From positions 62,001-126,000 of the forward strand of contig JALHMI010000016.1 of the NCBI GenBank assembly GCA_022844125.1: DNA of 64,000 bases, read 5' to 3'. This DNA is from Pirellulales bacterium (GTDB lineage Bacteria > Planctomycetota > Planctomycetia > Pirellulales > PALSA-1355). Within the stretch, counting starts at the first letter, position 1. Every line of letters begins with the position of its first letter. Shown here in pieces: positions 35,546 to 59,241 of the stretch. Under the pieces are notes generated by a model. It was given only the letters and a program-made list of their open reading frames with translations. It had not been told where the DNA came from and did not search any database. The position numbers and the translations under genes are program-made.

Positions 35546-35725
35546 ACGGCGACCGAGTGAGAGGAACCGACTTTTCCCATCTGCGTTTGAGCCTGATACA
35601 AACCCAGGCTCAGTCAGGCCAAGATTGTAGCAACGTGCTCGCTCGCCCACGTGTCCCCGGGAAGCGTTTCTGATATTTTGCTATCAGCTTCGACCAGTCC
35701 GTCCAGCCAGCACAGGAACCGCCCG

Positions 35726-36889
35726 ATGCCCAACTTCGGCGACTATCAACTCGAAATCTACTTCGCCGGCCTGCGCGGCGAGCGCACGCCCTTCCCGATC
35801 GACATCCACGAACTGGAAGCCAAAGCCCACACCACCATGCCGCGGGACCTGCTGTCCTATGTGGCGGGCGGCTGCGGCGACGAACGCACGCAGCGCATCA
35901 ACGTCGAGGCATTCCAGCGCTGGGGGCTCGTGCCGCGAATGCTCGTCAGCCCCACGCAGCGCGACCTCTCGATCGAAATGTTCGGCCTCAAGCTCCCCTC
36001 CCCCGTCTTCATGAGTCCGATCGGCGTGCTCGGCATCTGCACGCAGGATCAGCACGGCGACCTGGCCGCGGCGCGTGCGTCGGCCCAGACCGGCGTGCCT
36101 CTGGTAGCCTCCACGCTTTCGATGGATCCGCTGGAAGACGTGGCGCGAGAGTGCGGCAGCACACCCAGTTTCTTCCAGCTCTACACGCCGACCGACCGCG
36201 AGCTCGCCGAAAGCTTCGTCAAGCGTGCCGAAGCCGCCGGCTACAAGGGCCTCATCGTCACGCTCGACACCTGGCTCCCCGGCTGGCGTCCGCGCGACCT
36301 TTCGATGGGCAACTTTCCGCAGCTCCGCGGACTGTGCCTGGAGAACTACTTCTCCGATCCCGTGTTCCTCAAGAAGCTCGAAAAATCGCCACGCGAAGAT
36401 CTCCGCACCGCAGCCATGGTCTGGGCACGCCTGTTCGGCAATCCCCTCACCTGGAACGATCTTCCCTGGCTCCGCTCGATTACCAGGCTGCCTTTGATTC
36501 TCAAGGGCATCCTGCATCCCGATGACGTTCGCCGCGCCATCGACGCCGGCGCAGACGGCATCTTCTGTTCGAACCACGGCGGACGACAGGCCAACGGCGG
36601 CGTCCCGGCGCTCGACCATTTGCCCGAGGTGGTCGCCGCCGCGGGAAGCGTTCCAGTGCTGTTCGATTCAGGCATCCGCTCCGGAACCGACGTCGTGAAG
36701 GCTCTCGCCATGGGCGCCCGGGCCGTTGGCATCGGTCGTCCGTACGTCTATGGCGCGGCCATCGGCGGCACCGCCGGCATCCGCCACGTCCTCCGTTCGA
36801 TGCTCGCCGAAGCCGACCTGCTGATGGCCGTCGACGGCTATCCCACGCTGAAGGACCTTAATCCCGAGGCTCTGCGGCGGGTCGGCTAG
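35726..36889 (+). CDS. FMN-dependent alpha-hydroxy-acid oxidase
   Basis: A 387-residue TIM-barrel flavoenzyme of the lactate monooxygenase/lactate oxidase/glycolate oxidase family. It has the FMN-binding [12 protein letters not shown], the [10 protein letters not shown] strand, the LIVTLDTW strand, and the active-site motif [12 protein letters not shown] with catalytic His and Arg, then [31 protein letters not shown]. The long form with an N-terminal [14 protein letters not shown] resembles lactate 2-monooxygenase-like proteins. Products cannot be predicted. Its last 17 residues have a decayed copy at 52161-52211. The start at 35726 fits family alignments. Confidence 0.88.
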
Positions 36890-43323: not shown

Positions 43324-44478
43324 ATGCATAACCGATCCACTGGTTCTACGATCACGGCCCCGCGCAACGGCCAGCCGCAGTCGCCCGCGGACGCGATGGC
43401 GGCGCCGCCCCCACCCGTCGCATTCCATTACGCGCAGACGGACAGCTTCGTCGAATTGCTCTCGCGACTGGGAGCGTCGCTATTGGTCAGCACCTACCAG
43501 GCCAATAAGCTGCTGGCCGTTCGCGTGCAGGGGCCAGGGCTCTCCGTCCTGGTCCGCACGTTCGATCGGCCGATGGGCATCGCAGTCGATCCGCGCCGCC
43601 TGACCTTGGGCACGCGCAACCAGATCTGGACTCTCCGCAACGCTCCCGACATCGCGCCGCGAATTGAACCCGCCGGCGCGCACGACGCCTGCTACCTGCC
43701 GCGCTCGGCGCACGTCACCGGCGATATCGGCATCCATGAGATGGCCTGGTGTGACGACGAACTGTGGATGGTCAGCACCCGATTCTCTTGTCTCGCGACG
43801 CTCGACAAGGACTACAGCTTCGTGCCGCGCTGGCAGCCGCCATTTATCACCGCGCTGGCAGCCGAAGACCGTTGCCACTTGAACGGCCTGGCGATACGTG
43901 ACGGGCGGGCGACCTTCGTTACTGCTCTCGGCGAGACGGATACGGCCGGCGGCTGGCGCGCCGCGAAGGCCAACGGCGGCGTTCTGATCGACATCGCCAG
44001 CGGCGAGACCGTGGCCCGCGGCCTCTCGATGCCCCACTCGCCGCGCTGGCACGACGGCCAGCTATGGGTCCTGGAATCGGGCACGGGCGGCGTCGCACGC
44101 GTCGATCTGGCGACCGGCCATCGCGAAACGGTCCTCAATCTGCCCGGCTTTACCCGCGGCTGGGCGCTCGTCGGCCATTATGCATTCGTGGGGCTTTCCA
44201 AGATTCGCCCGACCTCAGCGATGGCGGGAGTGTCGATTGCGGAAAGGCGCCACGAGCTGAAATGCGGGGTGGCCGCGGTCGATCTGAATCGTGGGGTCAT
44301 GGTTGGCTTACTCGAATTCCAGACTGCCGTCGAGGAACTCTTCGATGTGCAGTTGCTCAAGTATCGTTTCCTCGAAGTCATCGGTTTCCAGAAGGAAGCT
44401 GTCGATCACACGTTTGTTGTTCCGCCCGGCGCCACCCCCCGGGTTCCCATCCCTGAAGGTCAGCGCGGTACTTCTTGA
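43324..44478 (+). CDS. DUF4915/TIGR03032-family protein, copy 1
   Basis: A 384-residue protein without signal or membrane helix. The family pattern is plain: ELLSRLGASLLVSTYQANKLL, FDRPMGIAVDPRRLTLGT, the HVTGDIGIHEMAWCDDELW segment, DRCHLNGLAIRDG, and LSMPHSPRWHDGQLWVLESGTG. The pattern looks like a beta-propeller. The biochemical role is not known to me. It follows the Calx-beta gene by 15 bp. The paralog at 50345 is in the same position behind the next exported giant. Its C-terminal EVIGFQKEAVDHTFVVPPG has a decayed relative at 51752. Confidence 0.85.
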   Translation: MHNRSTGSTITAPRNGQPQSPADAMAAPPPPVAFHYAQTDSFVELLSRLGASLLVSTYQANKLLAVRVQGPGLSVLVRTFDRPMGIAVDPRRLTLGTRNQIWTLRNAPDIAPRIEPAGAHDACYLPRSAHVTGDIGIHEMAWCDDELWMVSTRFSCLATLDKDYSFVPRWQPPFITALAAEDRCHLNGLAIRDGRATFVTALGETDTAGGWRAAKANGGVLIDIASGETVARGLSMPHSPRWHDGQLWVLESGTGGVARVDLATGHRETVLNLPGFTRGWALVGHYAFVGLSKIRPTSAMAGVSIAERRHELKCGVAAVDLNRGVMVGLLEFQTAVEELFDVQLLKYRFLEVIGFQKEAVDHTFVVPPGATPRVPIPEGQRGTS

Positions 44479-44672: not shown

Positions 44673-47600
44673 ATGAGCGCTCGAACACGGCCGCTTGCCC
44701 ACCGCGGTTCATTTAGGTTCTCGCAGCTTCACCGCACGCTCGTCGCCGAGGCACTTGAAGATCGGACGCTGCTGTCGGCCAGCGGCAGCTCGTCGCCCGA
44801 CGACATTCTCGCGGCTCTGGCAGTCATGGCGGCTGAGTTCGCGACCGCGCCCAGTTCGTCATTCTCTTCCTCTGACGACGAAGTCAGCCAGCTATTGAAT
44901 CAGGCACAGCAGAGCGTAATCGCTAGTTCCATGGTGGCGCTGTCACAGCCTGAAGCGTCGTTCGCCCTGACCGCCCTCGATCAATACGTGGCGGCGCCCG
45001 ATCCGGCTTTCGGCTACAGCGTCGCCAGAACATTCGCTGGTGTTGGCTTCGACGGCTATGTGCTGAAGATGCAATCGCAGGAGTGGCGCACACCAGATGA
45101 GGTGAATCGCACGCTGTGGGAGCACTGGCTCATCATCGCGATTCCCCACCAGCTCAATCCCCAATCGAACTCAGCACTGCTGGCCATCACGGGTGGTAAC
45201 AATCGCAGCGCGACCCCGCCTTCCAACTTCAGCATTGCAGAGCTGGGCACGATCGCTGGCTTGACCGGAACGGTCGTGGCCGAACTGCGAATGGTTCCCA
45301 ATCAGCCACTGACATTCGCAGCGGAGACGCAACCGGCCGGCACCTTCGCGGTCCCCGGTGAGTCGCCCGATCTGGTCGAGTTGGACTTTCATTTCGATTC
45401 AGGTTTGGGCGGCCTGCAGTTCAGCTTCGGGTTCTATGACCTCGCCTCGGTGACGGTAGATCCGGTAACGCAAAAACGCGACTACGCAGTGCAGGCCATC
45501 AGCAGCGGCGCCTTGCTGTTTGATGAGCGAATTGACTCGCCCGGCTCACTTGTGGAGTACAACGTGGTGGCCCGATCCGAGTTGGGGTTTTTCATCGTTC
45601 CCGACGACACGGTCGCCAACTTCCTGGCTGATCCGAATGCCTACTACGGGGGCGGCAAGCGTGCGCCGCTGTTCTCACTGCCGAGTGCCAACCCCGGCCA
45701 ACTTGATCAGATGACGGTTTCTATCGAGCCGGGTGTAACTCGAATCCAGTTCGAGGATCTCAGTCGGGTTGGCGGCGGTTCGGACAACAACTTTACGGAT
45801 GTGCAGATCGCCATTCACGGCGGGCTTTCGCCGGTGCCACTCCCCCCAGGATCAGACATCTTCGGGACTTCCAGGACCGAAGACGCGATCATCGCGTACA
45901 CGTTCGATCAGTACCTGGCGACAGGCGACGACACTTGGCCGGCGCTACTGCCGATGGTCAAGAGTGCCGTCCGCGCGATGGACGCGGTTCAGCAATTTGT
46001 TCCCCAAATCGCTGCAGGTCACGCGATCGACGACTTTGTCGTCAGCGGAGGGTCCAAGCGCGGTTGGACCACGTGGCTGACTGCCGCCGCGGATGCAGCC
46101 TCGGCGGACCCGCGAGTCAAAGCGATCGTCCCCATGGTGTTCGACGCGCTCAATCTTGACGAACATCTCGCGCATCACAAAGAGTACTACGAAGGTGTCA
46201 CCGATTCGATCATCGACGGCTACTCCAATGCACTCAAGGATTACACGGCATTAGACGTGATCGAGGCGGTCAATACGCCCGAAGGTCAGCAACTGCTTTC
46301 GATTGTCGATCCCTATGAGTATCTCGATCGACTCACGATGCCGAAGTTCATGATCAACTCGACCGGCGACGAGTTCTTCGTACCCGATTCGGGCCAGTTC
46401 TACCTGGGCGATCTACCGGGCCAGAACTACGTCCGTTACGTGCCGAACACCAATCACGACGTGCTGGACGACTCCGACGCCGGCGAAAGCCTGATCGCTT
46501 ACTACGACGCAATCGTCAATGATCGACCGCTACCACAGTTTACCTGGTCGGTCGAGGATGGCGGAGCGACGATTCGTGTGAACTCGATTGACACACCACT
46601 TCAAGTAAACGTTTGGCAGGCGACGAACTATGCCTCGACAGACTATCGGCGTTCGGTGACCGGTATTCCTTGGAGCAGTTCTCCGCTGACCGCCCAGAGC
46701 GACGGCAGTTATGTCGCGCAAATACCCGAACCGAACCTTGGCAGCACCGCGTTCATGGTGGAGATGGTGTATCCGGGGGAGATTTTTCCGTTCAAGTTCA
46801 CGACCCGCGTTAGCGTACTGAAGGCCGATGAGGAGAGTCCGATCGAGCCCTCGCTCGTGCCGGAGTTGGTCGCTGACATCAACGACCGGACGCTGGATGC
46901 GAGCATCGCCAATCTAACGCCGGTGAATGGCACGCTGTTTTTCACGGCCTTCGACCGGGCGCATGGAACCGAGCTGTGGAAAACCAATGGCACGGCTGGC
47001 GGAACGGTGCTCGTGACCGATATCGCACCCGGGCCGAGTAGCTCTTACCCCTACGGCCTCACCAAAGTCGGCGGGACTCTGTTCTTCACGGCCTATAACA
47101 GCGAGACCGGCAGCGAATTGTGGAAGTCGGATGGCACGGCCGAGGGAACCGTGCTGGTGGCGAACGTACGACCGGACAATGGTAATCCCAGCGGATCCTA
47201 TCCATCAAGTCTGACGGCGATGGGCGGCTCGCTGTTTTTCACGGCGTACGATAACGCACACGGCCGCGAATTGTGGAAGTCCGACGGCACGGCGGAAGGA
47301 ACCGTACTGGTCGCAAATGTTCGCCCGGACGGACCCTACTATTCTCGTGGCTCTGATCCATTGAACTTGACGGCGATGGGCGGAACGCTGTTTTTCTCGG
47401 CCCAGCATGATGACTACGGCCGCGAACTGTGGAAATCCGACGGCACGGCCGCGGGGACCGTACTGGTTGAGGACATTCGCCCCACGAGCCACTATGGCTA
47501 TCCGCAGGGCTCCAACCCGGAGAACTTAACAGCCGTCGGCGGCAGATTGTTTTTCACGGCCTACGACGACGAACATGGCCGCGAACTGTGGAAATCAGAT

Positions 47601-50312
47601 GGCACGGCCGCCGGTACCCAGCTCGTGGCTGACATTCGTCCGACGAGTCCCTACGGTTATCCTCAGAGTTCATATCCCCTGAGCCTGACGGCGGTCGGCC
47701 GGATGTTGTACTTCACAGCCAACGACGTCGAACATGGCCGCGAACTCTGGAAGTCGGACGGCACGACCGCGGGAACCAAGCTCGTCGCCGATATTTCTCC
47801 AACGAGCACTTATGGCTATCCCCACAGCTCCGCTCCTGCCGAGCTGGTGGCGGTTGGCGGGACTCTGTTCTTCACAGCCAATGACGAAGTGCACGGCCGC
47901 GAATTGTGGAAGTCCAACGGCACGGCTGCAGGAACCGTGCTGGTCTCGAATATTGTCACGGACAGCCCGTATGGAACTCGGAGCTCCGATCCAACGGAGC
48001 TCACATCGGTGGGCGGCGCGGTGTACTTTGTCGCATACAGCGATGAGCATGGCCGCGAGCTGTGGAAGAGTGACGGAACGACCGCAGGCACGATGAACGT
48101 CGCGAACATCCGCCAGGACAGTCCGTATCCTATCGGCTCGTATCCGGCCAATCTGACAGTCATGGGCGGCAAGCTGTTTTTCACCGCGACAGACGACGAG
48201 CACGGTCTCGAGCTATGGAAGACGGGTGGGACTGCCATCAGCACGAGCCTGGTCAAGGATCTCATCGTGGATACGCCGGGTTCCTACCCCCAGCAGTTCA
48301 CCGAGATCAATGGCGTCTTGTACTTTGTGGCAAGTGATGATCGCGGCCAGGAGTTGTGGAAGAGCGACGGGACCGTTGCTGGTGCCGGGCTTGTCGCAGA
48401 TATTTTCCCAGGAGCAACAAGTTCCTACCCGGCGAACCTAACGAACGTCGGCGGGATACTTTATTTCACGGCCAGAGACGAAACGCACGGCTTCGAACTT
48501 TGGAAATCGGATGGCACGGCTGAGGGGACGGTACTCGTCGCAGACATTTGGCCGAGCGGCCCGTACGGCAATTCCGGCTCGTATCCACAAAACTTGGCAA
48601 ACATTGGTGGCCTGCTCTACTTCTCCGCTGACGACGGCAGGCATGGCCGCGAGTTGTGGAAGAGCGACGGGACGGAAGCAGGAACTGTGCTGGTCGCCGA
48701 TATCCGCGCCAACAGTCCCGGCGGCTGGCATCAAAGCTCTTACCCGGCCAATCTGACCGCAGTCGATGGATCGCTGTTTTTCACAGCCCAGGACGATGAG
48801 CACGGCCGGGAACTGTGGAAATCCGACGGCACGGCTGAGGGGACCCTCCTCGTTCTGGACATTCGTCCGGAAAGCTACTACAGCTACCCTTTCAGCTCCG
48901 CCCCCATGTATCTGACTGCGGTAGGCGGGACGCTGTACTTCACTGCCTACGAAGAGACCCATGGTCGTGAACTCTGGAAATCCGACGGCACCACCGAGGG
49001 CACCGTCCTACTGGCGGACAGCTACGACGAATTCCCCGGCGGTAGCTCCTATCCGTCCGCCCTGACCAATGTCGGCGGAGTTCTCTTCTTTGGGGCCTAT
49101 GGCAACGGCACGGGCCGCGAGCTGTGGAAGAGCGACGGCACGGTAGAAGGAACGAAACTAATTAGGGATATCGAGCTCGGCTACGGCAGCTCCGATCCGA
49201 CTAGCCTCACGAACGTGGATGGCCAAGTCTTCTTCACCGCCTTCCACCAGACATTGGGAATTGAACTCTGGACGAGCGATGGAACAGCGCAGGGCACGAT
49301 TCCCGTGAAGAACATACGCCCCGGAAGCAGCGGTTCGTATCCCGCGCAATTGACGAGCGTCGGTGGCAAGTTGTTTTTTGTGGCCCATGACAGTTATCTC
49401 GGCGGCCAACTGTGGCAAAGCGATGGGACCGCCCAGGGCACGGTTATGCTTCCTGCGCCCGTTGGTACAGACAGTGGGGGATTTTATCCAAACCAGCTAA
49501 CCAATGTGGGCGGAACGTTGTTCTTCAGTGCGACCGGCCAGAACATGGGCCAGGAGCCCTGGGCGTTGGTGCAGCCGATCGAAATCGACATCCGACCGGG
49601 TAGCGTGATTAACCTGGTCAATCTGGCATCATCCGGAGAAGTGCCCGTAGCGGTGTTTAGCTCTGCGACGTTCGATGCCAGTGCGATTGATGCCTCGACG
49701 CTGACGCTCGCCGGCGCGCACGTGGCCACAAAGCTTGACGGCACGCCGAAGTCGACCCTGGTGGACATCAATGGCGACGGCGTCGATGACTTGCTCGTGC
49801 GATTCGCCTCCCAGGGCCTGAACCTGGCATTCGGTGACACGACCGCGATGCTCGAAGGGAAACTTCTGGATGGTCAGCGGATTCGTGGCAGCGATCAGGT
49901 TCGCGTGCTGAAACCGCTCGGCAGTAGCCCGGCGAGTGCGGCCATCGGCGACCAGCAGCCTGCCAGTAGCGAGAGCGTTCTCCAGGTCACGGCCAGCCCT
50001 GCATCTGCAATCATTGGTTCCGCCGTGCCAGAAGCGGCGGGCAAAGATCGGCCAAATTCGCCGGCACTGCTCGAGAAGACTCGCGCGACGGTCTCGGCGA
50101 CAACCGACAAGATCGATGCTCCGCCGGCTGTTCAGATCGTTGCCAAGACGCCACATCTGCTCAGCAGATTACCGGATGGCGTACTGGCGAACTTGCTCAT
50201 GGAAGTAGATGTCGGCGAGGAGTTGCTGAGTCGCGTCGAGGATACACTCAGAGTTCCTGAACACTCGGCAGAGCTGCCGTTAACACTTTCTCGGGTTCTT
50301 CGGCAGAGGTAG
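44673..50312 (+). CDS. Giant exported protein: PhoPQ-related hydrolase domain plus 17 ELWxxDGT repeats
   Basis: An 1879-residue protein. Residues about 24-32 are EALEDRTLLS, the planctomycete LExRxLLS element. Residues about 95-690 resemble the PhoPQ-activated pathogenicity-related family, an alpha/beta-hydrolase: ITGGNNRSATPP, then VVSGGSKRGWTTWL with Ser at 461, MINSTGDEFFVPDSG (Asp) and VPNTNHDVL (His). From about 767 to 1630 there are 17 repeats of 47-53 residues starting (R)ELWKSDGTAxGT, likely beta-propellers. A Ca-type segment DINGDGVDDLL and a Ser/Ala-rich tail end the protein. ATG 44673 follows a GGGGGT site. Function unknown; probably surface-linked. Confidence 0.9.
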   Translation: MSARTRPLAHRGSFRFSQLHRTLVAEALEDRTLLSASGSSSPDDILAALAVMAAEFATAPSSSFSSSDDEVSQLLNQAQQSVIASSMVALSQPEASFALTALDQYVAAPDPAFGYSVARTFAGVGFDGYVLKMQSQEWRTPDEVNRTLWEHWLIIAIPHQLNPQSNSALLAITGGNNRSATPPSNFSIAELGTIAGLTGTVVAELRMVPNQPLTFAAETQPAGTFAVPGESPDLVELDFHFDSGLGGLQFSFGFYDLASVTVDPVTQKRDYAVQAISSGALLFDERIDSPGSLVEYNVVARSELGFFIVPDDTVANFLADPNAYYGGGKRAPLFSLPSANPGQLDQMTVSIEPGVTRIQFEDLSRVGGGSDNNFTDVQIAIHGGLSPVPLPPGSDIFGTSRTEDAIIAYTFDQYLATGDDTWPALLPMVKSAVRAMDAVQQFVPQIAAGHAIDDFVVSGGSKRGWTTWLTAAADAASADPRVKAIVPMVFDALNLDEHLAHHKEYYEGVTDSIIDGYSNALKDYTALDVIEAVNTPEGQQLLSIVDPYEYLDRLTMPKFMINSTGDEFFVPDSGQFYLGDLPGQNYVRYVPNTNHDVLDDSDAGESLIAYYDAIVNDRPLPQFTWSVEDGGATIRVNSIDTPLQVNVWQATNYASTDYRRSVTGIPWSSSPLTAQSDGSYVAQIPEPNLGSTAFMVEMVYPGEIFPFKFTTRVSVLKADEESPIEPSLVPELVADINDRTLDASIANLTPVNGTLFFTAFDRAHGTELWKTNGTAGGTVLVTDIAPGPSSSYPYGLTKVGGTLFFTAYNSETGSELWKSDGTAEGTVLVANVRPDNGNPSGSYPSSLTAMGGSLFFTAYDNAHGRELWKSDGTAEGTVLVANVRPDGPYYSRGSDPLNLTAMGGTLFFSAQHDDYGRELWKSDGTAAGTVLVEDIRPTSHYGYPQGSNPENLTAVGGRLFFTAYDDEHGRELWKSDGTAAGTQLVADIRPTSPYGYPQSSYPLSLTAVGRMLYFTANDVEHGRELWKSDGTTAGTKLVADISPTSTYGYPHSSAPAELVAVGGTLFFTANDEVHGRELWKSNGTAAGTVLVSNIVTDSPYGTRSSDPTELTSVGGAVYFVAYSDEHGRELWKSDGTTAGTMNVANIRQDSPYPIGSYPANLTVMGGKLFFTATDDEHGLELWKTGGTAISTSLVKDLIVDTPGSYPQQFTEINGVLYFVASDDRGQELWKSDGTVAGAGLVADIFPGATSSYPANLTNVGGILYFTARDETHGFELWKSDGTAEGTVLVADIWPSGPYGNSGSYPQNLANIGGLLYFSADDGRHGRELWKSDGTEAGTVLVADIRANSPGGWHQSSYPANLTAVDGSLFFTAQDDEHGRELWKSDGTAEGTLLVLDIRPESYYSYPFSSAPMYLTAVGGTLYFTAYEETHGRELWKSDGTTEGTVLLADSYDEFPGGSSYPSALTNVGGVLFFGAYGNGTGRELWKSDGTVEGTKLIRDIELGYGSSDPTSLTNVDGQVFFTAFHQTLGIELWTSDGTAQGTIPVKNIRPGSSGSYPAQLTSVGGKLFFVAHDSYLGGQLWQSDGTAQGTVMLPAPVGTDSGGFYPNQLTNVGGTLFFSATGQNMGQEPWALVQPIEIDIRPGSVINLVNLASSGEVPVAVFSSATFDASAIDASTLTLAGAHVATKLDGTPKSTLVDINGDGVDDLLVRFASQGLNLAFGDTTAMLEGKLLDGQRIRGSDQVRVLKPLGSSPASAAIGDQQPASSESVLQVTASPASAIIGSAVPEAAGKDRPNSPALLEKTRATVSATTDKIDAPPAVQIVAKTPHLLSRLPDGVLANLLMEVDVGEELLSRVEDTLRVPEHSAELPLTLSRVLRQR
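46971..49560 (+). repeat. ELWxxDGT repeat-encoding DNA (17 units of about 150 bp)
   Basis: The unit starts near codons for ELWKSDGT and recurs about every 141-159 bp. The unit spacing is not constant, because the loop after 'VLVADIRP' varies in length. Copies share long identical runs at DNA level such as GGCCGCGA(A/G)(C/T)TGTGGAA, which points to recent duplication or gene conversion. The region could vary in copy number between strains. Confidence 0.85.
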
Positions 50313-50344: not shown

Positions 50345-51457
50345 ATGAACGGAACTGATCTCCAGCTCGACGAAAGCATTCCGTCGGCGGCCACAGATGC
50401 CGCAGCATTGCAGCGCGAGGTGAAGTTTCGCCATTCACGAGAGTTCGTGCCATTGCTGGAGCGGCTGGGTGCCTCGCTGTTGGTTTCCACCTACCAGGCC
50501 GGCAAACTGGTCGTCCTGGGGACGCGCGATTCGCAACTCAACATCTCGTTGCATAACTTTGAGCAGGCGATGGGAGTCGCGATTCATCCGCACAGAATCG
50601 CGATCGGCAGCCGCGGCCAGGTGTGGTTCCTGAACAGTGCTCCGGAGTTGGCCGGACGGCTGGAACCGGCAGGCCGATTCGACGCCTGCTTTCTCACGCG
50701 CAAGGCTCTGGTCACCGGCAATATTCAGAGCCACGAAATGGCTTGGGTCGGCGAGGAACTGTGGATTGTCAACACGGCGTTTTCTTGTCTGTGCACGCTC
50801 GACGAACAGCACAGTTTTGCGCCTCGCTGGACGCCGCCGTTCATTACCGACCTGGAAGCCACCGATCGCTGCCATCTGAACGGACTCGCAATGCAGGACG
50901 GACGCCCTCAGTACGTCACCGCGATGGCCGAATCCAATCAACCCGCGGGTTGGCGGCCCACGAAAGCACACAGCGGGTGCATTATCGATGTCGCCAGCAG
51001 TGCGATTGTTTCACGCGGACTATCCATGCCGCACTCTCCACGGTTACATCGCGGGCAACTGTTGGTTTTGAATTCCGGCATGGGAAACATTGAGAGCGTG
51101 GACCGCCAGACTGGCAACCGCGAACCCGTGGCACTGCTGCCGGGCTACACGCGCGGTCTGGCTTTCTGCGAACAATATGCGTTTGTTGGGTTGTCGAGAA
51201 TTCGAGAGACGGCCGTTTTTGGCGGAGTGCCCATCGCCGAGCATCGCGAGCAGTTGCGCTGCGGAGTGGGCGTCATCGACCTCAACACCGGCGCAGCGGT
51301 GGCGTACTTCGAGTTTCTCAGCGGCGTGGAAGAGATTTTCGACGTGCAGGTCTTGCCCAATACCAGTTGCGTCGGCATCACCGGACCGTATCCCCAGCAA
51401 GACCATGCTAAGGACGTATGGATCGTGCCAAGACCTTGTGGCAAAATTAATCAGTAG
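50345..51457 (+). CDS. DUF4915/TIGR03032-family protein, copy 2
   Basis: A 370-residue paralog of the protein at 43324. The same landmarks occur in order: PLLERLGASLLVSTYQAGKLV, FEQAMGVAIHPHRIAIGS, LVTGNIQSHEMAWVGEELW, DRCHLNGLAMQDG, LSMPHSPRLHRGQLLVLNSG, then GGVPIAEHREQLRCGVGVIDL. It starts 32 bp after the ELWxxDGT giant. The C-terminus (GITGPYPQQDHAKDVWIVPRP) differs from copy 1. The pairing of a giant exported protein with a DUF4915 protein, seen twice, suggests joint action such as assembly or modification of the exported partner. This is inference. Confidence 0.85.
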   Translation: MNGTDLQLDESIPSAATDAAALQREVKFRHSREFVPLLERLGASLLVSTYQAGKLVVLGTRDSQLNISLHNFEQAMGVAIHPHRIAIGSRGQVWFLNSAPELAGRLEPAGRFDACFLTRKALVTGNIQSHEMAWVGEELWIVNTAFSCLCTLDEQHSFAPRWTPPFITDLEATDRCHLNGLAMQDGRPQYVTAMAESNQPAGWRPTKAHSGCIIDVASSAIVSRGLSMPHSPRLHRGQLLVLNSGMGNIESVDRQTGNREPVALLPGYTRGLAFCEQYAFVGLSRIRETAVFGGVPIAEHREQLRCGVGVIDLNTGAAVAYFEFLSGVEEIFDVQVLPNTSCVGITGPYPQQDHAKDVWIVPRPCGKINQ

Positions 51458-51697
51458 TCTTCAATCACAAGTCAAAGTAATGCTGGCCAAGTTCTCGTCC
51501 TGGCAGTTTCGGGAGAGAAGCCGCTTTCGGAGGGCTTTACCATTGGTGTACAGATGAAGCCGACTGAGGCCGTCCTCGGCTTCTCAGATGTGTCGCTGTT
51601 CGCAGATAAGTGCCTTCAAGACCAAGTACTAGATATCAAACGGATAACGTCCTGAAGGTTGCGCACAAATCGAAAGGGCAGTCCTAACGCTGGTTGA

Positions 51698-51826
51698 GGT
51701 TTGTTTGTCGAGAACGAACTCTACCAGCACGAAAGGACTCGCCGAGCCCGCTTTCCGGAAGTCATCGGCTTTCAGAAAGAAGACGTCAAGTAGACGTTTG
51801 TCGTACGACCGGGGCACAGGTGATCG
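51698..51826 (+). pseudogene. Decayed C-terminus of a third DUF4915 gene
   Basis: One frame reads FVENELYQHERTRRARFPEV, then IGFQKEDVK, then a TAG stop, then TFVVRPGHR. This matches the copy 1 tail (FLEVIGFQKEAVDHTFVVPPGA) with a stop in place of the His/Asp region. No start or N-terminal part is present. It is therefore a remnant of a further copy. The match was made by eye. Confidence 0.8.
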
Positions 51827-51905
51827 GGCAGACACCCCCACCCCAGTCTACTCAGGAGAGTGTTCATCGGCCCCCTCTTCCGCCCGCTATTACTCTGCTG
51901 CGCGA

Positions 51906-52099
51906 TTCCATTTCAGCTACCGCATGGGCACCACCGAAGTGCCCGTGGGACAGTTCACGGCGTTTCTGAACGCAGTTGCGGCCGACGATCCGAGTTGGCG
52001 GAAACCGACACAGGGTTTCGCGTAGCGCGCGTCCCCGAGCCGTCATCCCTGGCACTGGCAATTTGTTGCGTCGTGGGCTGTGGTACCGGGCTACCGCAA
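51906..52099 (+). pseudogene. Remnant of a SUMF1-like PEP-CTERM protein
   Basis: The first part reads FHFSYRMGTTEVPVGQFTAF then LNAVAADDPSW, the typical early motif of formylglycine-generating-enzyme-like (SUMF1) proteins. It stops at 52023. In another frame from 52028 follows VPEPSSLALAICCVVGCG, a PEP-CTERM signal. So the middle of the gene (several hundred bases in relatives) has been lost and the ends are out of frame. Confidence 0.78.
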
Positions 52100-52115
52100 G
52101 AGCCACTCACACCAG

Positions 52116-52157
52116 CATCGCCCCGCTCACCGGCGGCTTCCATGAAAGCCGATTCTG
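52116..52157 (-). repeat. Copy of the thioesterase 3' end or a dispersed hairpin element
   Basis: These 42 bases match 55140-55181 with one difference. There they encode the last residues (NRLSWKPPVSGAM) of the thioesterase at 55131. Read in reverse here the frame gives NRLSWKPPVSGAMLV and a stop. A small hairpin, CGGCTT-CCATGA-AAGCCG, lies inside. It may be a fragment of a lost thioesterase gene or a mobile repeat that supplied the tail of the live gene. Confidence 0.75.
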
Positions 52158-52160
52158 TGC

Positions 52161-52211
52161 TATCCGCCGCTCAAAGACCTTACGCCCGAGGCGCTCCGCC
52201 GCGTGGGCTAG
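52161..52211 (+). pseudogene. Decayed C-terminus of an alpha-hydroxy-acid oxidase
   Basis: The frame reads [16 protein letters not shown] and a TAG stop. The oxidase at 35726 ends [16 protein letters not shown] and a TAG stop. Two residues differ. DNA differs at more positions, so this is an old relative rather than a recent copy. Nothing upstream fits the same family. Confidence 0.75.
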
Positions 52212-52507
52212 CGGGAACAACCCTTGGACCGCCAGGGACTCGCCGGTCCGCTCGTCAGCGACCACCCTGGTAGCAAAAAAAGTCGAAAGTCTCGCTGTCT
52301 GCGGAGATTTCCCTCCGCGCGAGATTCGTTCCCAGCAATTTGCTTTAGTGGAACCGAAGTTGCACTCCACGCAAAGGCCTTAGCGCGTGACCCCAGCTTG
52401 GAGTGGCGCGAAGGGACCAGCGATCAAATCAGGTGCGCCATGATCTGCGCCTCGTGAGCGACCCCAGGCCACGCCGCTCATCCAGTGGGCTGCGGAGGGA
52501 GAATTCC
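52212..52507. other. Gap without recognisable gene
   Basis: The stretch after the gene remnants has no supported coding region. It ends with a GGAGGGAGAATTCC ribosome-binding region before the ATG at 52508. Confidence 0.5.
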
Positions 52508-53038
52508 ATGTATCGGCAATGTGTCGTCGCCGTCTACGCGAAGCTGTCGGAGGCACGCTCGGCGCTAGAGGCCCTCGAGCACGCGGGTTACTCGCCAGAA
52601 AATGTCTCCCTGGTTACATCCAGTGTGGAGCGACAGATCGAAAACACCGAGGCCCTGGAATACGGCGACAAATCTGCCGAACGCGGCGCCGCAGGCGCCG
52701 GAGTTGGCGCGCTCATCGGTGGTTTGCTTGGCAGTCCATTGCTCATGGTGCCCGGCATTGGGCCACTGCTCATGGCCGGCCCGATTGCAGCGGGCGGCGT
52801 GGTGGGGGGCCTGACCGGCGCCATGACCGGCTGGGGCGTCAAACCGGACAACCTCGCGGAATACGACGAACTGGTGCGCCAGGGCGACGTGATCATCGTC
52901 GTTGAAGGACCGCCTGACCGAGTCGCTCAGGCCCACGAACTGCTCAATGAGACCTCGGCCAAGCAAGTGCACATGCATGCCAAAACCAGTGCCGATCACC
53001 CCGAGATCGACGATCGCCCCGGCGGGACCGCGGATTGA
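52508..53038 (+). CDS. General-stress-type protein with glycine-zipper segment
   Basis: A 176-residue protein. Residues 1-45 (YRQCVVAVYAKLSEARSALEALEHAGYSPENVSLVT) form an alpha/beta unit as in the YflT/general stress protein 17M family. A Gly/Ala-rich hydrophobic middle (GAAGAGVGALIGGLLGSP and AGPIAAGGVVGGLTGAM) looks like a glycine zipper. A second alpha/beta unit with VRQGDVIIVVEG follows. The start has a GGAGGGAGA site and comes after the dead-gene zone. The family is usually induced by stress; the exact role is unknown. Confidence 0.78.
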   Translation: MYRQCVVAVYAKLSEARSALEALEHAGYSPENVSLVTSSVERQIENTEALEYGDKSAERGAAGAGVGALIGGLLGSPLLMVPGIGPLLMAGPIAAGGVVGGLTGAMTGWGVKPDNLAEYDELVRQGDVIIVVEGPPDRVAQAHELLNETSAKQVHMHAKTSADHPEIDDRPGGTAD

Positions 53039-55115: not shown

Positions 55116-55130
55116 TCCAGCTACCGACTC

Positions 55131-55631
55131 TCAGACCCGCATCGCTCCGCTCACCGGCGGCTTCCATGAAAGCCGATTCTGCTCGGCCAGCAGCGCGTCG
55201 ATCCGCGCCAGAATCTCCACCGGGTAGGGCGTCGTCTTTCGCGCCGCCAGGTCGACCAGCGCGTTGACGCATTCGAAGTGGGCCGCCACCTTGCCGGTCG
55301 ACTCGTTGATCATGAACATCAGGTAGTGGATCATCTTCGCCGACCGCGCCACGATTCGGGCGTAAACCGAAACCTGGCTGCCAGCCAGCACCTCGTTCAG
55401 AAACCAGGTATGGTGTTCCAAGTCCATCGTCCCCGTGCCGCTCGCGCGGCGGAACTCGCGCGTCAGGCCGATTTGATCGTGCAGCGTGTCCCCCGCGTCG
55501 TCGAACAGCGCCACGTACCAGCGCATGTTCATGTGATTGTTCAGGTCCAGATACTCCTGGGGAATCGTGCGGCGCAGGCACACCGGCCGCAACGCAGCAA
55601 TGTCCTGGACCGCGATACTCTCAGGTTTCAT
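55131..55631 (-). CDS. Acyl-CoA thioesterase, hotdog fold
   Basis: A 166-residue protein of the 4-hydroxybenzoyl-CoA thioesterase-like family. The motif PQEYLDLNNHMNMRWYVALFDDAGD contains the conserved D-x-N-x-H-type active-site area, and the rest shows the strand/helix rhythm of a hotdog domain, with VSVYARIVARSAKMIHYLMFMIN. The last 15 residues are encoded by a 42-bp sequence repeated at 52116-52157. That may mean a repeat inserted into the 3' end and changed the tail. Substrate unknown. Confidence 0.82.
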   Translation of the reverse strand: MKPESIAVQDIAALRPVCLRRTIPQEYLDLNNHMNMRWYVALFDDAGDTLHDQIGLTREFRRASGTGTMDLEHHTWFLNEVLAGSQVSVYARIVARSAKMIHYLMFMINESTGKVAAHFECVNALVDLAARKTTPYPVEILARIDALLAEQNRLSWKPPVSGAMRV

Positions 55632-58893: not shown

Positions 58894-58940
58894 CGCAGGG
58901 GCCTTTGTTGCTTGGTGATTCGGGGCGAGGACCGCTTACC

Positions 58941-59241
58941 GAATGACATGGTTTACCGAATGACATGGTTTACCGAATGACATGGCTTACCGAATGACAT
59001 GGTTTACCGAATGACATGGTTTACCGAATGACATGGTTTACCGAATGACATGGCTTACCGAATGACATGGTTTACCGAATGACATGGTTTACCGAATGAC
59101 ATGGTTTACCGAATGACATGGTTTACCGAATGACATGGTTTACCGAATGACATGGTTTACCGAATGACATGGTTTACCGAATGACATGGTTTACCGAATG
59201 ACATGGTTTACCGAATGACATGGTTTACCGAATGACATGGT
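58941..59241. repeat. Array of 18 copies of a 17-bp tandem repeat
   Basis: The unit is GAATGACATGGTTTACC. It begins at 58941 and repeats at an exact 17-bp spacing up to 59230, where the last copy is partial (GAATGACATGGT). Two units carry C in place of the second T (GGCTTACC); the others are identical. The lead-in at 58935 is also CTTACC. The array ends about 10 bp before the NTF2-like stop at 59251 and lies about 50 bp upstream of the PPOX-like start. The unit is not a multiple of three and the frames hit stops. Confidence 0.95.

Follow-up and report, generated by a model that had tools for sequence, protein, structure and literature searches.

The window, as the whole analysed stretch of 64 kb is called here, corresponds to positions 62001-126000 of contig C16 in the 6.44-Mb genome of a planctomycete, which is assembled in 27 contigs. 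The locus under study is a gap of 1,050 bases (51458-52507). It is bounded on the left by an intact DUF4915 gene (50345-51457) and on the right by a YflT/DUF1269-like gene, which starts at 52508. Gaps of at least this length are represented by 32 of the 597 found in a 1.25-Mb sample of the same genome. Comparison of the DNA by BLAST with its own genome and with those of relatives showed that the gap contains five coding scraps derived from four gene families (Table 1). No open frame extends across the pieces, which are distributed on both strands and exhibit truncations, stops, an in-frame TAG and frame shifts.

Table 1. Features of the gap at 51458-52507 (positions of the window; percentages are nucleotide identities over the length given)
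Feature	Position	Strand	Remarks
Left part of the gap	51458-51642		begins directly after the stop codon of DUF4915 gene 50345-51457
Insertion sequence, IS256-like (mutator type), left terminus	51643 to about 51745	+	103 nt; truncated just upstream of the transposase start codon
DUF4915 (TIGR03032-like) gene remnant, 3' end	51748-51823	+	in-frame TAG
SUMF1-type PEP-CTERM gene remnant, near-N-terminal piece	51917-51992	+	match on contig C4
PEP-CTERM end (GFRVARVPEPSSLALA) of a gene of this type	52013-52085	+	joined after the middle was lost
Thioesterase (4HBT_2) gene remnant, final 16 codons with stop	52106-52157	-	94% over 52 nt to 55130-55181
Alpha-hydroxy-acid oxidase (FMN_dh) gene remnant, final 17 codons with stop	52159-52211	+	79% over 53 nt to 36837-36889
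Right part of the gap	52212-52507		up to the DUF1269/YflT-like gene

The peptide readable in 51458-51640 had no relative but itself among 97 genomes of the order. The right part of the gap gave no significant match within its own genome, and against 396 genomes of the order it gave just one match, chance-level and partly overlapping. A search of Rfam for structured RNA at the locus was without a match, and no tRNA was found there. Elsewhere in the window, at 58936-59241 and between genes, a tandem array occurs that consists of 18 copies of the 17-base unit TTACCGAATGACATGGT, 98% alike.

The DUF4915 tail shows 79% identity over 47 nucleotides to positions 44374-44420 of the window, which belong to an intact gene (43324-44478), 82% over 56 nucleotides to genome G007, and 75% over 73 nucleotides to genome G037, reaching the same stop position. 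A first-pass annotation of this DNA had placed a DUF4915 tail with a stop from 51698 onwards; the tail is real at the position given in Table 1, and the segment 51698-51745 was found to be part of the insertion sequence end. Between two DUF4915 genes of the window, the region 44673-50312 encodes a protein of 1879 residues in which numerous ELWKSDGT repeats accompany a PhoPQ-related domain, and similar repeat genes are present near DUF4915 genes at four other loci (L012, L017, L019 and L149). The tRNA-Ser called by ARAGORN at 48209-48302, inside this repeat-rich giant gene, is probably a false positive.

The SUMF1 piece is 76% identical over 75 nucleotides to C4:253192-253266, a segment that encodes roughly residues 57-83 of a related protein 369 residues long, and 82% identical over 56 nucleotides to genome G020. 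The PEP-CTERM piece is 84% identical over 38 nucleotides to C9:15838-15875. On these alignments, a putative SUMF1/PEP-CTERM gene has retained parts of both of its ends and its middle is gone. The earlier statement that all of the pieces are C-terminal does not hold, the SUMF1 piece being near-N-terminal and the PEP-CTERM piece representing the end of the gene.

The relative of the thioesterase tail is the end of an intact gene (55131-55631) with the same stop codon, and the orthologue in genome G003 is 77% identical. The oxidase tail, like the intact oxidase gene (35651-36889), ends at TAG, and 9 of its 12 differences in 54 nucleotides are in third codon positions. Matches of this tail in genomes G072 and G007 were dismissed as chance, lying inside unrelated frames with no stop at the end. 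Full-length relatives in the window thus exist for three of the four families, as had been noted before. The two tails are placed head to head with a single base between them and their stops directed outward. Both edges of the thioesterase piece are sharp, and the abrupt end of the similarity on either side of the two pieces shows that these are real joints. Their divergence is unequal, with 3 differences in 51 nucleotides for the thioesterase tail vs 12 in 54 for the oxidase tail (p 0.02), which suggests that the gene copies differ in age or that one of them was partly converted.

This arrangement is what a tandem duplication would leave, if the duplicated segment had begun with the final 53 nucleotides of the oxidase gene (at 36837) and had ended with the final 52 of the thioesterase gene (at 55181), so that the thioesterase tail was followed by the oxidase tail at the joint, and if most of one or both copies had been lost later. 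The intact oxidase gene on the plus strand lies to the left of the joint and the intact thioesterase gene on the minus strand to its right, as the model demands, and it accounts for the abutting tails with one base between them and outward stops. Moreover, the closest relatives of three of the tails lie within 16 kb of a 6.4-Mb genome; the chance figure for this, 1e-7, was conceived after the fact and hence is no test. However, the regions 36.9-52.1 kb and 52.2-55.1 kb share nothing beyond the two tails, the tails are unequally diverged, and the divergence of the oxidase tail is mainly that of a coding gene. Such a duplication is considered rather unlikely.

The thioesterase tail could also be read as the trace of an element that entered the thioesterase gene at its 3' end, the 52-nucleotide direct repeats 52106-52157 and 55130-55181 being the attachment sites around a 3-kb element. 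The direct repeat of the 3' end of a gene, 94% identical and 3024 bases apart, would be in keeping with this, but the stretch 52.2-55.1 kb contains no recombinase, its genes being the one of YflT/DUF1269 type, one resembling ferric reductases and a small ORF, and the oxidase, DUF4915 and SUMF1 pieces would be left unexplained. An integration of this type is very unlikely.

The significance of the matches was assessed against 894 predicted genes from the 1.25-Mb sample. The scores were 79.7 bits for the thioesterase piece, 55.4 for SUMF1, 47.3 for the oxidase, 42.8 for PEP-CTERM and 41.0 for DUF4915, all five higher than the best of 200 dinucleotide shuffles (39.2 bits), while the next-best match in the real gap beyond the five pieces was at background level. 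The clustering of four families that was proposed in the first-pass annotation is therefore borne out by DNA similarity in register with stop codons and above all 200 shuffles. Compared with the closest relatives in their own genome, the pieces differ at codon positions 1, 2 and 3 in 9, 9 and 39 cases, i.e. 39 of the 57 differences are in third positions (p ~7e-8). Such an excess is less expected from the unconstrained decay of a fresh copy and suggests that the pieces diverged mostly as working genes, which were later cut down. They are non-coding DNA with significant similarity to functional genes elsewhere, and the intact reading frame has been lost, as is the case for pseudogene remnants.

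The earlier proposal that transposons should be sought at the joints was fruitful at the left one, where an IS256-like remnant is present. This left end shares 86% identity with two contig ends, those of C22 and C10, at which the beginning of a Transposase_mut-like protein comes next, and 75-83% with copies in genomes G020, G021, G052 and G055. Longer relatives of the C22/C10 protein score against Transposase_mut (PF00872) with E values of 1e-22 (a copy at locus L028) and 1e-19. The flanks of the copies diverge right before GATAACGTCC, which identifies GATAACGTCC as the border of the element, and it is the left terminus common to copies carrying a Transposase_mut gene that links the remnant to the IS256 family. 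The right end was absent from the 64-kb window.

The copies in the same genome break off at the end of C22 and at the start of C10, both contigs running some 168 bases into the same IS256-like element before they stop. No complete Transposase_mut gene occurs in this assembly, and intact copies of the element probably exist in the genome, having broken the assembly. The breakage of the 27-contig assembly at copies of this very family is, as judged from the assembly, a point in favour of faulty sequence or assembly, affecting either one real gene or contigs that were joined. Against it, the pieces come from four unrelated genes, lie on both strands and are diverged, not identical, so that no correction of indels makes one gene of them. 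An error of this kind is extremely improbable, as is a single intact gene emerging after correction, the outcome that was to overturn the earlier interpretation.

The relatives available for comparison were, at the level of the genus, the genome of the window only and, at the level of the family, four genomes. Among the 396 genomes of the order searched, including this one, the joints were found in none of the other 395; as far as can be seen from these genomes, they appear to be lineage-specific. No synteny at the locus was detected with G001-G004 and G021 or with 11 further loci, almost all of them from planctomycetes, and the orthologues of the thioesterase, oxidase and DUF4915 genes stand elsewhere in unrelated surroundings.

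Taken together, the locus is best described, with a probability of about 0.8, as a lineage-specific pseudogene graveyard in which additional gene copies beside an insertion sequence were deleted one after another. The unequal divergence of the thioesterase and oxidase tails counts against this reading. The gap would once have contained, or have acquired, additional copies of four genes (DUF4915, SUMF1/PEP-CTERM, thioesterase on the minus strand and alpha-hydroxy-acid oxidase on the plus strand), and an IS256-like element would have been inserted at its left. Afterwards at least three events of the deletion type may have reduced the locus: one presumably fused the left end of the element to the DUF4915 tail, another would have removed the middle of the SUMF1 gene, and a third would have removed the 5' bodies of the head-to-head thioesterase and oxidase pair, both tails remaining. 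The order of these events is a proposal, that they were deletions is the presumed case, and the insertion sequence may have had a role in starting them. The data point to the deletion of former genes in preference to the repeated insertion of tails, and the locus is likely to have no present function.

It had also been suggested that repeated recombination or insertion at one spot left gene tails behind. Several events at one spot are indeed needed, but a special pattern of tails is not supported. Two joints and one deletion within a gene suffice for all of the pieces: since the oxidase tail and that of the thioesterase meet in head-to-head orientation, one joint yields both, and the joint between the insertion sequence and DUF4915 yields the third tail. 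By simple arithmetic, the chance that three tails are all 3' ends, given two joints and random gene strands, is about 1 in 8, and the pattern requires no special process. In the genome sample (597 gaps, 224 kb, from 1.25 Mb), matches to gene fragments were found in 12 gaps by DNA and in 26 by protein, several of them being the adjoining gene or a related stretch common to C16 and C22, and no preference for gene ends, and in particular for 3' ends, was observed across the 597 gaps. The small number of fragment-bearing gaps and the lack of such a preference make the locus an outlier in richness and not an example of a general process. That the spot repeatedly captures or keeps the 3' ends of nearby genes, by a local duplication process giving pieces of about 50 bp that end at stops, is highly improbable.

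The contigs C16 (148558-180023) and C22 (26184-49111) of this assembly share several diverged similar stretches, with genes that are intact on one contig but look disrupted on the other, as if these were parts of a duplicated or mobile region.

The graveyard belongs to a known kind of thing and brings no new mechanism. As a small but clear case, it shows how superfluous genes are erased from a large bacterial genome, and it calls for caution, as a set of gene tails can arise from only two joints. With the IS256 family (Transposase_mut, PF00872) the locus shares a 103-nucleotide left end that matches the ends preceding Transposase_mut genes in relatives; it differs in that only this left end remains, without transposase and without right end. 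Decay of the same kind, in which long intergenic regions contain what is left of earlier genes, has been described generally for bacteria (PMC3899985). The degraded remnants known from Rickettsia, Buchnera and Sodalis-type symbionts (PMC3899985) have in common with the locus a long gap, short frame-broken pieces of genes and remnants of insertion sequences. Unlike in those symbionts, the pieces are found here in a planctomycete genome of 6.4 Mb, in the sample of which no overall decay was seen, and four families are represented within 500 bases.
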